The translations under genes were made by a program, and so were the position numbers. The notes beneath the pieces were generated by a model. The model was not told the DNA's origin. It saw only the letters and a list, made by a program, of their open reading frames with translations, and searched no databases. Shown here piece by piece: positions 12,732 to 18,429 of a stretch of 64,000 nucleotides of DNA (the stretch's first letter is position 1; every line of letters starts with the position of its first letter). Source of the DNA: Mesotoga sp. BH458_6_3_2_1 (GTDB taxonomy: Bacteria > Thermotogota > Thermotogae > Petrotogales > Kosmotogaceae); the NCBI RefSeq assembly GCF_003664995.1, contig NZ_JFHL01000018.1, positions 1 through 64,000 of the forward strand, given 5' to 3'.

Positions 12732-12979
12732 TTTGTACCTCCTTTGGTTAAGATGCACTATATTGAGTAAACCAACATCATCCAAAATAGCCGTCAGCTG
12801 GAAAAGACCAAAACAGAAGAGCTGCAGTCTATATCTATTTCAGATGGCCTTACCAAACTGCGAGCGAATTGCCTAATGATAATCAATCTTAACATTCAGC
12901 TGTCCAGAAGAAATTGTACACTGGCTAACCTAGCACATTGCTGGAAGTCAAAGGTAAAATACTCTCAGGGAGGTGCCTT

Positions 12980-13948
12980 ATGAGTCTCGGTGCGCTGTTC
13001 AATTCATATCTATATCATGGCAATTCTCTGAAGAAGCGCTTCTTTGAGGGGTGGTATTTCAAGTTTGTTGACAAGAGAAAAGAAAAGTCCTTTGCAGTAA
13101 TTCCAGGCGTCTCAACAGGTTCCTCAAAAAACGAATCGCATTCTTTTATCCAGTTCCTTTCAGGTAACAGAAATGAATCAGGAAATTTCACTTATCCCTT
13201 CAAGGATTTTCATTCGGACACAAAGCGATTCGCAGTCGAAATCGTAGATAACTACTTTTCAACAGAAAGAGTGAGTCTCAATATGAAGAATGAGAAAGTC
13301 AAGATCGCTGGAGAGATCAAGATAATACACCCTTACCTCTGGCCCGTAAGATTCTACTCCCCGGGAATTATGGGCCCGTTTTCATTTGCTCCTTTCATGG
13401 AGTGCTATCACGGTGTCGTCAGCATGGACCACTCTCTGGAGGGAGAAGTTGAAGTGAGTGGAGAAGTAATAAATCTATATGGCGGAAAGGGTTATATAGA
13501 GAAGGATTGGGGAAGATCCTTTCCAGAAGCATGGGTCTGGATGCAGAGCAACAACTTCGATCATGCCAGGACGTCGTTTATGTTATCCATAGCAACGATT
13601 CCTTGGTTAGGGAGAAGTTTTACTGGTTGTCTGTGTGCCTTTCTTTGTAAAGGAGAGCTTTACAGATTCACTACCTATAAGGGAGCAAGAATCAACAGAG
13701 TTGATACATCCGGTGATAGGATTTCAGTTGAGTTGAAGCAGAGAGAATTTACGATACATGTGGATGCCAGGAAGACTTCTGGTGCGCAGCTTATTTCGCC
13801 GGTACAGGGTAGTATGAGTGGCAAGATCGACGAGTCGTTGACATCCGAGATTCATCTGAAAGTATACGAAGGCAACACACTTCTCTTTGAAGGTACCGGG
13901 ACCAATTCTGGACTGGAAGCTGTAGGAAAACTGAAGCTAAAGGATTAG
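12980..13948 (+). CDS. Tocopherol cyclase-like protein
   Basis: A 322-residue protein resembling the tocopherol cyclase-like family (PF14249). Supporting marks are KRFFEGWYFKFVD near the start, SFIQFL, GPFSFAPFMECYHG in the middle and KGYIEKDWGRSFPEAWVWMQ, all recalled as conserved in these lipocalin-like beta proteins. Bacterial members have no demonstrated cyclase role, and no tocopherol pathway is expected here, so function is open. The ATG at 12980 follows CAGGGAGGTGCC; an upstream in-frame TTG at 12938 lacks a ribosome site. It stands alone on the plus strand. Confidence 0.75.
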   Translation: MSLGALFNSYLYHGNSLKKRFFEGWYFKFVDKRKEKSFAVIPGVSTGSSKNESHSFIQFLSGNRNESGNFTYPFKDFHSDTKRFAVEIVDNYFSTERVSLNMKNEKVKIAGEIKIIHPYLWPVRFYSPGIMGPFSFAPFMECYHGVVSMDHSLEGEVEVSGEVINLYGGKGYIEKDWGRSFPEAWVWMQSNNFDHARTSFMLSIATIPWLGRSFTGCLCAFLCKGELYRFTTYKGARINRVDTSGDRISVELKQREFTIHVDARKTSGAQLISPVQGSMSGKIDESLTSEIHLKVYEGNTLLFEGTGTNSGLEAVGKLKLKD

Positions 13949-14130: not shown

Positions 14131-14961
14131 TTAGCCACTTCTCTTCAGCACACCCTTTCTCTTCGCCCATGATTCCATTCTTCTGAAGAAAAGAAGACCT
14201 GACGGGAGGAGAAGAGCACCAAGAAAGATTAAGGGCCAAACATCATTACTCATCTCGGGCATGCTCTTACCTTCAAGAATCGATGCGCGCATGCCTCTCA
14301 ACGCGTAAGTAGCGGGAGATAGCTTTCCGACCTGTTGCATCCAAAATGGCAGAACGTCGATTTCATAGTAGACTCCCGAGAACATCAGAAGCAAGGCTTG
14401 AAAAATGTGCACAACCTGCACTCCCTTTTCCGGAGAAATTAATGGCAACACTGCAGCAACTATTCCCAATCCTACAAATGAGAAGCTTGATACTGCAAGA
14501 ATTCCAGCTGCTGACAGGAGATTGGCACTACTCAGGTCCAGATCAAAGAAGACCGAGACAACTAGCAGAATGAGTCCACTTCTCAGGATTCCATAGAGAA
14601 TGGCGTAGCCGCAAGTACTCAGTAGATGCGTTGCCCTCCTAACAGGTGCCATAAACGTGTACTCGATTGTCTCTTCCCATCTTTCCCAGGCGACGGTCTC
14701 TGCAACTATTTCGAAGAGAATAGAGAGATATCCCCAGAGTATGGAACCAAGTAACATATAGAGGATCAAATAGCTCGTGTTAAGCTTAGTTCCAGAAAAC
14801 GACTCGACTCCCTTTCCGATGAAACCCATTGTCACCGAGTTTGCCATAGTGTAGACAAAGAAAACAACTTCCCATTTCCAGTATCTCTTGGTGAAATTGA
14901 AATTGCGTTCGATAAAGGCCCAGGAGGCGCGAAGCTCTCGGGCCAGCGCCTTTCCACTCAT
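14131..14961 (-). CDS. ABC-2 type exporter permease
   Basis: A 276-residue membrane protein with about six predicted membrane segments, beginning around residue 30. The ETVAWERWEETIEYTFMAPV stretch and the C-terminal SGVYYEIDVLPFW loop are typical of ABC-2 permeases of the drug, peptide or polysaccharide export class. Its start overlaps the end of the ATPase gene by four bases (ATGA), so it is the second half of one exporter. It is the last gene of the transcript starting near 16360. The cargo is not stated by sequence; the mini-ORFs upstream make peptide export an attractive guess. Confidence 0.88.
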   Translation of the reverse strand: MSGKALARELRASWAFIERNFNFTKRYWKWEVVFFVYTMANSVTMGFIGKGVESFSGTKLNTSYLILYMLLGSILWGYLSILFEIVAETVAWERWEETIEYTFMAPVRRATHLLSTCGYAILYGILRSGLILLVVSVFFDLDLSSANLLSAAGILAVSSFSFVGLGIVAAVLPLISPEKGVQVVHIFQALLLMFSGVYYEIDVLPFWMQQVGKLSPATYALRGMRASILEGKSMPEMSNDVWPLIFLGALLLPSGLLFFRRMESWAKRKGVLKRSG

Positions 14962-15752
14962 GCCGATTCTACCTCCTGATACTCTGCCTCCTCGATACTC
15001 ATACCTGTAAACTCCAGAAAAACATCTTCAAAGCTTGGATTATCGACCTTTCCAAGAAGCTGTTTTTTCAATTCGGCCGGTCGCCCCGAAGCAACGATTC
15101 TTCCAAGATGAATGATAGCCACGTAATCGCAAAGCTTCTCAGCTTCATCCATATCGTGTGTTGTCAGAAGCATAGTTGTATTCATTGTTTGTTTGACATC
15201 TCTAATCATATTCTGAACATCCCTCTTCGCTCTGGGATCGAGACCTGTGGTTGGCTCGTCGAGCAAGAGCATTCTTGGTTCTGTCATGAAGGCTCTCACG
15301 ATTGCCACCTTCTGTTGCATTCCTCTCGAGAAATCTTCGAGCGGATCCTTGAGCCTCTTCAGATCCAGGCCGAATTTCTCGGAGAGAAAGTTTATCTTCT
15401 TCAATGCTTCACGTCTCGGTATTCCGTAAAGGCCCGCAGAAAAACTGAGGTTCTCTACGGCAGACAGCTTTCTAAAGAAGCTAGCCTCTACCGAGACCCT
15501 GTTTATCATTCTTTGAATGGCCACGGAATCGCTGACCGAATCGAATCCGAAAATGGATATACTTCCCCTATCGGGTATCAAGAGTGTTGAGGCGATCCTA
15601 ATGAAGGTCGACTTTCCCGAACCGTTGGGACCGAGAAGACCGTATATCTCTCCTTCCTTTATTCTCAAACTGACTCCTTTTAGTGCTCTTACTTCTTTTC
15701 GATTCTTCTTGAAAGTCTTCACAATATTATTGGCAAGCAAAGCGTCTGCCAT
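14958..15752 (-). CDS. ABC-2 type exporter ATP-binding protein
   Basis: A 264-residue ATPase with Walker A GPNGSGKST, signature DFSRGMQQK, Walker B MLLLDEPTTGLD and the H-loop TTHDMDEAE. This is the CcmA/DrrA-type exporter group. The GTG/ATG region is clear: ATG at 15752 has GAAGGTGAG just before it. It forms an operon with the permease at 14131-14961, overlapping it by four bases, and is preceded within 12 bases by the mini-ORF ending at 15765. The ATPase itself is ordinary; its leader is not. Confidence 0.92.
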   Translation of the reverse strand: MADALLANNIVKTFKKNRKEVRALKGVSLRIKEGEIYGLLGPNGSGKSTFIRIASTLLIPDRGSISIFGFDSVSDSVAIQRMINRVSVEASFFRKLSAVENLSFSAGLYGIPRREALKKINFLSEKFGLDLKRLKDPLEDFSRGMQQKVAIVRAFMTEPRMLLLDEPTTGLDPRAKRDVQNMIRDVKQTMNTTMLLTTHDMDEAEKLCDYVAIIHLGRIVASGRPAELKKQLLGKVDNPSFEDVFLEFTGMSIEEAEYQEVESA

Positions 15753-15764
15753 TTTCTCACCTTC

Positions 15765-15866
15765 TTAAAGATAATGAGGTCTGCTGAATTTGCTTTCAAT
15801 TTCCACTTTCTGTCTTTCAACTAGTCCGTCTATAAAAACGTTTCTTGAACCTCGTAATCTCTTCAT
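15765..15866 (-). CDS. Mini-ORF 4 of 4, 33 residues, next to the ABC ATPase
   Basis: Reads MKRLRGSRNVFIDGLVERQK then 13 more residues ending SRPHYL. The ATG at 15866 has AAAAGGAG seven bases upstream and the stop lies 12 bases before the ATPase start, where a fresh ribosome site occurs. It is basic at the start and has no clear membrane segment. No family recognised. It is the closest of four consecutive small frames, all with good ribosome sites. Confidence 0.5.
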   Translation of the reverse strand: MKRLRGSRNVFIDGLVERQKVEIESKFSRPHYL

Positions 15867-15891
15867 TATGATTCTCCTTTTGTAAGCTGTT

Positions 15892-15996
15892 TCACTTCGG
15901 GAAGTCCATGAAACTTTCCGGTCTGTAAATGAAGGGTGGAAGTGCTGCGATGTCGTTTTCTCTCTTCTTTCTCGGCGAACTTATTACTATAAACAT
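15892..15996 (-). CDS. Mini-ORF 3 of 4, 34 residues
   Basis: Starts MFIVISSPRKKREND and ends ESFMDFPK. The ATG at 15996 follows CAAGGGGGTAAAT. A short hydrophobic start, then a KKRE patch, then an aromatic and proline-rich tail (LPPFIYRPESF). It ends 25 bases before mini-ORF 4. No family recognised. A 91-codon TTG frame overlaps it in another register, so it needs experimental support. Confidence 0.45.
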   Translation of the reverse strand: MFIVISSPRKKRENDIAALPPFIYRPESFMDFPK

Positions 15997-16049
15997 ATTT
16001 ACCCCCTTGATCTTCCGGAGAACATGGCCCCTTATGATGATCGAGGCTT

Positions 16050-16145
16050 TCAGTGGTTGTTGCGCCCAGTTCCCCTCTCTTTCGGTGTCTCCAACTCTTC
16101 TCTTTGATTTCTCGTATTCCTTTCATCAGATACTCTTTCAAACAT
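16050..16145 (-). CDS. Mini-ORF 2 of 4, 31 residues
   Basis: Starts MFERVSDERNTRNQREELET and is extremely hydrophilic, ending GTGRNNH. The ATG at 16145 follows TGGGAGGTGAGCAGA, a strong site. It begins 22 bases after the terminator's T-run, so it is reached only when transcription reads through. An alternative TTG start four bases later opens a different 91-codon frame ending at 15866. Confidence 0.4.
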   Translation of the reverse strand: MFERVSDERNTRNQREELETPKERGTGRNNH

Positions 16146-16166
16146 TCTGCTCACCTCCCAATAGCC

Positions 16167-16204
16167 AAAAAAAAGGACCGTGGCTTCTACTCGCCACGGT
16201 CCTT
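16167..16204 (-). terminator. Internal terminator or attenuator upstream of the ABC exporter
   Basis: On the minus strand a ten-base perfect stem GGACCGTGGC (read from 16202) and its partner (16175-16184), loop of eight, then eight T residues (16167-16174). It lies between mini-ORFs 1 and 2. GCCACG in codons 23-25 of mini-ORF 1 is complementary to CGTGGC of the first arm, so an alternative pairing is possible. Confidence 0.85.
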
Positions 16205-16219
16205 CATACTTCCTTATCG

Positions 16220-16327
16220 TTATACGATCTTATACCTCACACGACGGAAGAAGGCGTGGCACAGTACGGCATCACCGGATACCCGGTTAAGATAAACGGT
16301 TGCCGGAACTCTCGTTCTAATGGTCAT
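16220..16327 (-). CDS. Mini-ORF 1 of 4, 35-residue leader peptide
   Basis: Starts MTIRTRVPATVYLNRVSGDA and ends RRVRYKIV, with six or more arginines and a single Cys-His pair. The ATG at 16327 follows GGAAGGAGGCATAGTTTG, one of the strongest ribosome sites in the window, about 35 bases downstream of a near-consensus promoter. Fifteen bases after its stop is an intrinsic terminator. That layout (promoter, short frame, terminator, then structural genes) is that of a leader peptide controlling an operon. Confidence 0.55.
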   Translation of the reverse strand: MTIRTRVPATVYLNRVSGDAVLCHAFFRRVRYKIV

Positions 16328-16368
16328 CAAACTATGCCTCCTTCCAAATAAGTCTCTATCGCTGGAAA

Positions 16369-16396
16369 ATTATAGCACAATGAACAAGCAATTCAA
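16369..16396 (-). promoter_or_regulatory. Strong promoter of the mini-ORF/ABC exporter operon
   Basis: Minus-strand TTGAAT (16391-16396), 16-base spacer, TATAAT (16369-16374). The -10 box is a perfect consensus. It is 42 bases upstream of the mini-ORF 1 start. Confidence 0.75.
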
Positions 16397-16581: not shown

Positions 16582-18429
16582 TTACTTGAACAGCCGGTAG
16601 ACAAGTTCGCTGTTGTGATCAATTACATCGTCAGTAAAAGGATCCCCGGGGAATAGGAAAACACTGCCCAGCCCGTATTCATGATCTATTGACTCTCCCT
16701 GCAGATCTGATAGCCCATCAAATAGAATTCCATCAAGTTCAGTTTCTTCGCCTGTTATTGTATCCTCGTACCTGTAAGGAATACCCATTTCTTCGATAAG
16801 TCTGTTGTATGTAGCTAGAACATCACTGCTGATTTCATCGCCGCTCCCAGTTATGATGAGTGTTCCCCCGTTCAAAACAAACTGCTTAATTATCTCGGCC
16901 TGTTGGGGCATGAGCATCTTAAGTCGTTCAAAACTTCCGCCAGCTCCGGGCAGTGGAATTATGAGAACATCGATTGTATTCAGTTCACCTTCCTTAAAAA
17001 TCCTGTCGGCAGTCGAATACTTGTGACCACTTCCCTCAAGAGCCGCCTCCAATTTGCCTCTACTATCACTGGCATAGTTGACGTGACTTTTATCAAGTAA
17101 AACATTCAATGAATCCTCGCTCCTTATGTTAAGTTTGATGCTTGAGTATGGGACGGAATCAAGAAAGAAGGAGATGACTCCATCGTGCGCTTCTACTGTG
17201 TGCTGTGTATTCACAATCTTAGATTCGAATTCCTCCAGCATGACTGTCTCACTATATATTTCACCGCTTAGATTGGTTATTTGAATCAATGAGGAAGCTT
17301 CTTCGGAGGAGAGGTTCGAGATTTGGAAAGAGAGTGTCAGGCCTTCTCCTGGCTTAACGCTCTCTGGGTAAGCGCTAGGATTGTAGAGGTGCACAGGGTT
17401 TGATCTTTGAAACCAAATGGGTGAAGATACCGCTTCCTCGCCGTCGCTTCCCTTAACGTAAATGAAGAAATACTGGAACCCGGTTTCAATATTCGCTCGG
17501 ATGCTGAGATCTAACTCATGGCTGTCGACCAGGAACTGTGCAAATATCCCATCCCGAGAAAAAATCTTCACTGTCTCCAGAGGATCGTAAGCAGTGTCTT
17601 CGATTAGAATTCTCAGATCCACTTGATCGACGTCATAAACAACATCTCCCATAAACGCTTCTTCGGTAGAGAAGTGAATCTTAATGTTCTTATCTTCAGT
17701 TGCATATGTTCTTCTTTTCATAAATGCTTCCAGTATGGTTTTTTCGCTTAGATCAGTAGCATAGACGGCTGTTCTTGAATCGTTTGCTCCTCCCCAGTTG
17801 GGTTTGTGATTGTCCTGACCGAGAGTCGCACCAATGTGCCATCCCTTTCCCAGTGCATCAATGTAGGCTGAGAACATCTCATCGACAATCGTGTCGTTTT
17901 CCCACCAATTTCCATTGCCAACTTCAATCATATTCATATAGAGATCTGCTTGTGGGGAATACTGGAATTCCTTGAAGTTGTCTCCGAAATCTCTCACAGG
18001 ATGGTTGAACTGGCCGACCGCACCGTGCTCTATTATCCAGTCATACAGGTCCCAGAGATCCGACTTGACTCTATCCGTCCAGTCACTTGTGCCGTACACG
18101 TTTATATGTCCAGTACCGGTTGCTGTCCATTCAAAACCCGCGAATGCAGCAAAGAGCTGAGATGAGGCTTCCTTCGCAGCCTCTATTGTTGCAACCAATT
18201 TGTCCCTCCCGTCCGGGAGCTTCTGAGCAAAATAGTAGGCATGATCGGTAATTGCAAGAAAGTCAAGATTGGGTACTTCTTTGGCGAATGAGTAGGCTTC
18301 TTCCGGGAAACCCGTGCCGTCTGAGTAAGAAGTGTGAGAATGGGGATTTCCAAAGTAGAGATTGAGTTCGCTGCCCATCAAGACAGTCGATGCTAAAGTG
18401 AGCAACACAATGATGGCAAAGCTTTTCAT
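16582..18429 (-). CDS. Exported PHP-domain metallohydrolase (CehA/McbA-like)
   Basis: A 615-residue protein with signal peptide MKSFAIIVLLTLASTVLMGS. Residues about 27-250 form a PHP metal-binding domain: NPHSHTSYSDGTGF, FLAITDHAYYF, NHPVRDFGDN and GQDNHKPNWGG supply the histidines and aspartates. The middle is beta-rich. The last part resembles a glutamine-amidotransferase-like fold (DVLIIPLPGAGG, LNGGTLIITGSGDE). Related proteins are secreted phosphoesterases or similar hydrolases, substrate unknown. It lies upstream of the exporter promoter on the same strand and has its own ribosome site (GGGTGATTTT before the ATG). Confidence 0.8.
   Translation of the reverse strand: MKSFAIIVLLTLASTVLMGSELNLYFGNPHSHTSYSDGTGFPEEAYSFAKEVPNLDFLAITDHAYYFAQKLPDGRDKLVATIEAAKEASSQLFAAFAGFEWTATGTGHINVYGTSDWTDRVKSDLWDLYDWIIEHGAVGQFNHPVRDFGDNFKEFQYSPQADLYMNMIEVGNGNWWENDTIVDEMFSAYIDALGKGWHIGATLGQDNHKPNWGGANDSRTAVYATDLSEKTILEAFMKRRTYATEDKNIKIHFSTEEAFMGDVVYDVDQVDLRILIEDTAYDPLETVKIFSRDGIFAQFLVDSHELDLSIRANIETGFQYFFIYVKGSDGEEAVSSPIWFQRSNPVHLYNPSAYPESVKPGEGLTLSFQISNLSSEEASSLIQITNLSGEIYSETVMLEEFESKIVNTQHTVEAHDGVISFFLDSVPYSSIKLNIRSEDSLNVLLDKSHVNYASDSRGKLEAALEGSGHKYSTADRIFKEGELNTIDVLIIPLPGAGGSFERLKMLMPQQAEIIKQFVLNGGTLIITGSGDEISSDVLATYNRLIEEMGIPYRYEDTITGEETELDGILFDGLSDLQGESIDHEYGLGSVFLFPGDPFTDDVIDHNSELVYRLFK

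Follow-up and report, generated by a model that had tools for sequence, protein, structure and literature searches.

A predicted ribosome-mediated transcription attenuator ahead of an ABC-2 exporter in Mesotoga, with counterparts in several phyla

Four short ATG frames stand in a row ahead of an ABC ATPase gene in a 64,000-nucleotide stretch of the Mesotoga sp. BH458_6_3_2_1 genome (contig NZ_JFHL01000018.1, positions 1–64,000; hereafter the window), and they raise the question of whether the row consists of peptide genes served by the exporter behind it or of elements of another kind. The frames lie on the minus strand, with starts at 16327, 16145, 15996 and 15866 and lengths of 35, 31, 34 and 33 codons. 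These coordinates and codon counts, and the good ribosome site of each of the consecutive frames, agree with an initial annotation of the region, which also placed a near-consensus promoter before the row and an ABC-2 exporter downstream of it; both are present (Table 1). The TATAAT box of the promoter and its TG extension are maintained in Mesotoga-like relatives, with TATAAC in one. The same annotation held that four such frames hardly arise by chance, and the shuffles support this: under fixed rules (an ATG start, a length of 25–50 codons, pairing with the anti-SD at -8.5 kcal/mol or stronger, and no overlap), the 620-base stretch yields four frames, while 1890 of 2000 dinucleotide shuffles yield none, 110 yield one and none yields more. 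A 91-codon TTG frame had been named as possibly the only conserved one; in the nearest relative (G002) it is cut down to 36 codons, and scans of the remaining Mesotoga-like relatives did not show it, so that it is not a conserved frame. What had been overlooked is an intrinsic terminator between mini-ORF1 and mini-ORF2 (16205–16172; 13 pairs, -25 kcal/mol, 8-T tail). This hairpin splits the row into two parts of different nature.

Table 1. Features of the exporter locus in the window; the RNA strands and their pairings are predicted, and triplets of numbers are changes at first/second/third codon positions
Feature	Position	Strand	Remarks
Sigma-70-like promoter, TG-extended -10 box	16369..16396	-	TTGAAT-16-TATAAT
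Strand A, GGAAGGAGGCATAGT, ribosome site of mini-ORF1, anti-antiterminator strand	16331..16345	-	pairs with B
Mini-ORF1, leader peptide MTIRTRVPATVYLNRVSGDAVLCHAFFRRVRYKIV, R-T-R at codons 4–6	16220..16327	-	frame in 21 Thermotogae orthologs
Strand B, ACTGTGCCACGCCTTCT, last third of mini-ORF1	16249..16265	-	pairs with A or C
Strand C, GAAGGACCGTGGC, terminator 5' arm	16193..16205	-	pairs with B (antiterminator) or D
Strand D and U-tract, terminator 3' arm (16184–16172) plus T8	16167..16184	-	terminator fold
Mini-ORF2, 31 codons, strong ribosome site	16050..16145	-	39/34/40, coding constraint unproven in lineage
Mini-ORF3, 34 codons, conserved LPPFI motif, coding	15892..15996	-	39/28/62, p=0.0004
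Mini-ORF4, 33 codons, conserved peptide ending IES+FSRPHYL, coding	15765..15866	-	10/18/46, p=4e-7
ABC ATPase, DrrA-like, under DrrA cut-off	14958..15752	-	NCBIfam 239.2 vs 312.45 bits
ABC-2 permease, Wzm/KpsM/ABCG-type fold	14131..14961	-	best NCBIfam match DrrB, 40 vs 223.05 bits

The first part has the arrangement of an attenuator. Mini-ORF1, a frame read from the sequence, is a short leader with a ribosome site after the promoter, and the intrinsic terminator lies between it and the target gene. Three alternative helices, A:B, B:C and C:D, form in silico in the leader RNA of the window, and comparisons among genomes provide evidence that they are maintained. First, the four strands of other Thermotogae families are divergent in sequence but keep their complementarity; examples are GCATATACCCC/GGGGGTTGTGC at L105, GTCCACGGCC/GGCCGTGGAT at L104 and GTTCACCGCTC/GGGCTGTGAAC at L111, each with a matching ribosome-site strand. 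Second, strands pair better with their own partners than with partners swapped between genomes, averaging -24.9 versus -17.8 kcal/mol for A:B and -17.1 versus -13.3 kcal/mol for B:C. Third, B:C pairing over 36 leaders exceeds that of shuffles with a combined p of about 1e-8; the window's own B:C is only modestly ahead, and 7% of shuffles reach it. Among the 13 closest leaders, standard pairs fill 96% of pair cells for C:D, 96% for B:C and 85% for A:B, compared with 24–68% when the partner is slid; variation in this close set is mostly one-sided, so the covariation claim is carried by the class-wide comparison. Pairing of the ribosome site with the body of its own frame is consistently above shuffles for mini-ORF1 only. 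Parsimony changes in mini-ORF1 number 25, 24 and 30 at the three codon positions, and this lack of a third-position excess is expected if the RNA pairing, and not the peptide, is what is kept. On this sequence evidence mini-ORF1 is a regulatory leader that appears to be held at the RNA level. A search of Rfam gave no family match in the window.

Folding with a ribosome on the leader indicates how the choice between helices could be made. RNA up to the terminator loop was taken, a ribosome footprint was placed at varied codons, and only the RNA downstream of the footprint was folded. In the window, the predicted pairing of strand C with upstream RNA is 0.81 with the ribosome at codons 1–17 and 0.18 with the ribosome at the stop codon, and a similar drop is predicted for most of 45 leaders from several phyla. 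The antiterminator, mutually exclusive with the terminator, is thus predicted to be reached from an early and not from a late ribosome position, so that early arrest would favor read-through and completion of the leader would favor termination. In normal translation, ribosomes would cover strand B at the time when C and D are transcribed; the terminator would form and the exporter would stay off. A ribosome arrested at or just after the start codon would leave B exposed to pair with C, no terminator would form, and the operon would be read through. Such arrest could be caused by start-codon blockers, or by macrolides at the Arg-X-Arg of codons 4–6. When the leader is untranslated, A:B pairing may limit read-through; equilibrium folding of the untranslated window transcript finds that A:B does not suppress B:C (0.81), so it is the covariation that points to this role of A:B.

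The reading we favor, with a probability of roughly 0.7, is that mini-ORF1 and the hairpin constitute a ribosome-mediated transcription attenuator of an ABC-2 exporter likely to handle a drug or toxin, and that mini-ORFs 3 and 4 are not part of the sensor. The locus would probably be an exporter operon inducible by stalled ribosomes, with induction by antibiotics; a ribosome-targeting antibiotic would be the most likely natural inducer, and a drug or toxin the most likely cargo.

The leader-terminator unit follows this exporter well beyond Mesotoga. A permease search identifies 25 clear orthologs among 103 genomes of the class Thermotogae, of which 23 have upstream regions that could be judged (contig ends truncate those of G010 and G056). 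Ahead of the ABC gene, 21 of these 23 have a short ORF, itself with a good ribosome site, and a terminator; this unit is missing in two, G057 and G059. A permease-profile scan of GTDB genomes, with phyla assigned by record title, reveals relatives in Chloroflexota, Caldisericota, Acetothermia/Bipolaricaulota, Armatimonadota, Bacillota and others. The same rule set detects leader and terminator ahead of the exporter for 28 of the 54 non-Thermotogota orthologs, compared with none on the 54 opposite strands and none upstream of 15 paralogous ABC ATPases. The attenuator was also considered as a repeated genomic element and rejected as such, as DNA searches and a covariance model built from the closest leaders each give one strong locus per genome. 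Its distribution is unusually wide and tied to a single gene. A stalled-ribosome switch is thus predicted to be conserved across Thermotogota and several other phyla, a further case of the leader-peptide attenuator type, and no report of the leader in Thermotogota or Chloroflexota was found in searches of an open-access library of papers. This link of one exporter family to an attenuator across Thermotogota, Caldisericota, Chloroflexota and others points to long-standing ribosome-arrest control of an environmental exporter. At some loci, of Chloroflexota type and some others (L136, L144, L150, L165, L169, L172, L173, L180 and L189), tandem double terminator hairpins, often both with a GCCGTGGGC-type stem, occupy the gap between leader and exporter, an arrangement that suggests double attenuation.

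The leader peptides carry a further clue to what may stall the ribosome. Ribosomes with a bound macrolide or ketolide arrest at Arg/Lys-X-Arg/Lys, a motif on which ErmDL relies (PMC8298421); the same motif is used by the B. subtilis yxjB/tlrB leader (PMC6851288). At the place of codons 4–6, R-X-R/K with a variable X is present in six of eight Mesotoga-like leaders and in three more leaders of related genera, the Mesotoga-like G001 and G006 having R-A-Y instead. Of 26 dissimilar leaders in a strict set, 14 have the motif within residues 2–17, against 7.1 expected (p=0.0016), and the spacings ++, +XX+ and +XXX+ show no enrichment in the same set. Its frequency in mini-ORFs 2–4 is not significant (p=0.10), so the signal is not a product of basic composition alone. 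The excess is seen outside Thermotogota (10 of 15 versus 3.4 expected) and not within it (4 of 11 versus 3.7), and the drug hypothesis thus has good support in the system taken together but is only compatible with the data in the window's own lineage. In the model, drugs that stop ribosomes at the start codon would open the switch equally well.

The exporter genes resemble DrrAB-type ABC-2 drug exporters (TIGR01188, TIGR01247), their top NCBIfam matches, in the pairing of an ATPase gene with an ABC-2 permease gene. However, both proteins score far under the family cut-offs (239 vs 312 and 40 vs 223), and membership in the DrrAB daunorubicin-type exporters was rejected on these scores. A sequence search found no solved structure for the permease; its predicted model (pLDDT 85) has a fold that matches Wzm, KpsM, TarG and ABCG-type exporters. 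This modeled fold would not settle the substrate, as polysaccharide and lipid exporters are resembled too. A role of the ATPase in a defense system was also considered and dropped, the defense-system library giving generic ATPase matches only.

Two of these properties leave room for an attenuator that senses the general state of translation, such as a shortage of amino acids or charged tRNA or slow initiation, and not a drug, with an exporter that handles an endogenous compound: the arrest motif is unenriched within Thermotogota, and the exporter fold is like that of polysaccharide and lipid exporters besides ABCG. Moreover, the folding model has the switch open on an early stall of any kind. 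However, the leader lacks a run of one amino acid's codons and has an exporter rather than a biosynthetic gene as its target, the grounds on which a trp/his-type amino-acid operon attenuator was rejected, and Arg-X-Arg is clearly enriched in the same system in other phyla. We consider general sensing unlikely and prefer a drug-responsive attenuator, for which the switch itself offers a ready assay: finding what opens it may reveal the cargo of the exporter.

The part of the row past the terminator behaves as genes in two of its three frames. Parsimony changes counted by codon position within the genus show a third-position excess in mini-ORFs 3 and 4, which are thus real small genes in Mesotoga. 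The initial annotation had looked to conservation of the frames among relatives, and this stands for mini-ORFs 3 and 4; for mini-ORF2 coding constraint is not demonstrated, and its status as a gene is doubtful. The C-terminal VFGPYC(F/V)WL of mini-ORF2 is kept in the branch of G008, G003 and G007. Library searches match none of the mini-ORF peptides to a known family, as had been anticipated, and a sequence search with mini-ORF4 gives a match at its own locus only. Judged by eye, mini-ORF4 has possible distant relatives in other Kosmotogaceae-like genera.

The distance from terminator to ABC start is 128–798 bases in the Kosmotogaceae-like family, with a mini-ORF row, usually of three, and 17–35 bases in other Thermotogae families, with no mini-ORF in eight leader-bearing genomes (among L103–L112). 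A second Kosmotogaceae-like genus has a similarly spaced row with largely different peptides, and two Caldiserica-like loci (L119 and L122) also have mini-ORFs. Upstream of the ABC gene at L098 (G013), three successive mini-ORFs share a C-terminal SDF..Y..Q motif and look like duplicates of one another. Mini-ORFs 3 and 4, and probably mini-ORF2, would be made mainly on read-through, as an addition of the Kosmotogaceae-like lineage that is not the sensor. A part for mini-ORFs 2–4 in the same stress response as the exporter is a possibility, and the constrained mini-ORFs 3 and 4 are candidate unannotated small proteins made under translation stress. It is more speculative, and on balance doubtful, that they and their counterparts in related genera form a novel group of very small proteins that are produced only on ribosome stalling and act on the ribosome or the exporter within a single stress response, and that the attenuator is an ancient multi-phylum stalled-ribosome switch dedicated to this ABC-2 family.

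Mini-ORFs 2–4 could instead be further regulatory leaders, acting as translational relays or coupling ORFs and not as genes for functional peptides, a view that draws on the separate ribosome site of each frame and on their spacing along the read-through transcript. The chance of this appears small, since pairing of their ribosome sites with their own bodies, or of a body with the next ribosome site, is mostly no better than in shuffles, the row yielded no further terminator, and mini-ORFs 3 and 4 keep their amino acids while third positions change. The narrower idea that they are repeats of the attenuator was rejected on the shuffle comparison of ribosome site-body pairing. The proposal of the initial annotation, that the four frames are one row of signals, bacteriocins or immunity peptides secreted by the ABC-2 exporter, draws on the coding constraint of mini-ORFs 3 and 4 directly before the exporter and on the recurrence of similarly spaced rows in the second genus, but it is quite improbable: mini-ORF1 is accounted for as an attenuator leader, orthologs with roughly 54–73% identical permeases occur without mini-ORFs in other Thermotogae families, so that no role as cargo is required, the ABC protein shows neither a peptidase nor a maturation domain, the peptides match no known family, and inspection of these charged peptides by eye revealed neither a signal sequence nor a double-glycine leader.

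Most known cases of resistance genes under a leader-peptide attenuator come from Bacillota, Actinomycetota and enterobacteria. One such attenuator controls BmrCD of B. subtilis, a type IV heterodimer and not a DrrAB-like ABC-2 pair. The bmrB-bmrCD attenuator governs an ABC drug exporter, named an MDR-ABC transporter (PMC4191407), and shares with the Mesotoga locus a translated leader ORF, a choice among terminator, antiterminator and anti-antiterminator, an ABC exporter as target, and opening of the operon by a stalled ribosome, which is predicted here. Unlike in the window, where the terminator follows the leader, the bmrB terminator lies inside the leader ORF (PMC4191407); further differences are that strand A of the window is the leader's own ribosome site and that extra mini-ORFs follow in one lineage. 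The yxjB (tlrB) leader likewise has an R-X-R arrest motif, and its stalled ribosome prevents termination before a resistance gene, but the target is a 23S rRNA methyltransferase, the R-Y-R is at the leader end, and translational control and a NusG pause are added (PMC6851288). ErmDL has an early Arg-X-Arg in a short leader, at residues 6–8 as against 4–6 in the window, but ermD is under a translational attenuator in which mRNA refolding controls a methyltransferase, not an exporter (PMC8298421). In Escherichia coli, the toiL-topAI uORF is likewise a sensor of ribosomes arrested at or beyond the start codon, but it acts through a hidden ribosome site and Rho, and the target is a toxin-antitoxin operon (PMC12121999).

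The exporter genes are interrupted in two relatives. At G004:C17 (L113), the ATPase match is split between frames with a TGA, and the leader and mini-ORFs of G004 are intact; permease matches in G004 and G010 (G010:C132) are split as well, with internal stops. The interrupted ABC genes of both genomes reflect recent gene decay or assembly errors. In the window, the gene upstream of the locus (16582–18429, minus strand) is classed by NCBIfam as that of a CehA/McbA-type metallohydrolase and matches nothing in Pfam, and the convergent downstream neighbor (12938–13948, plus strand) matches Pfam Tocopherol_cycl, which is unexpected in an anaerobic Thermotogota genome.
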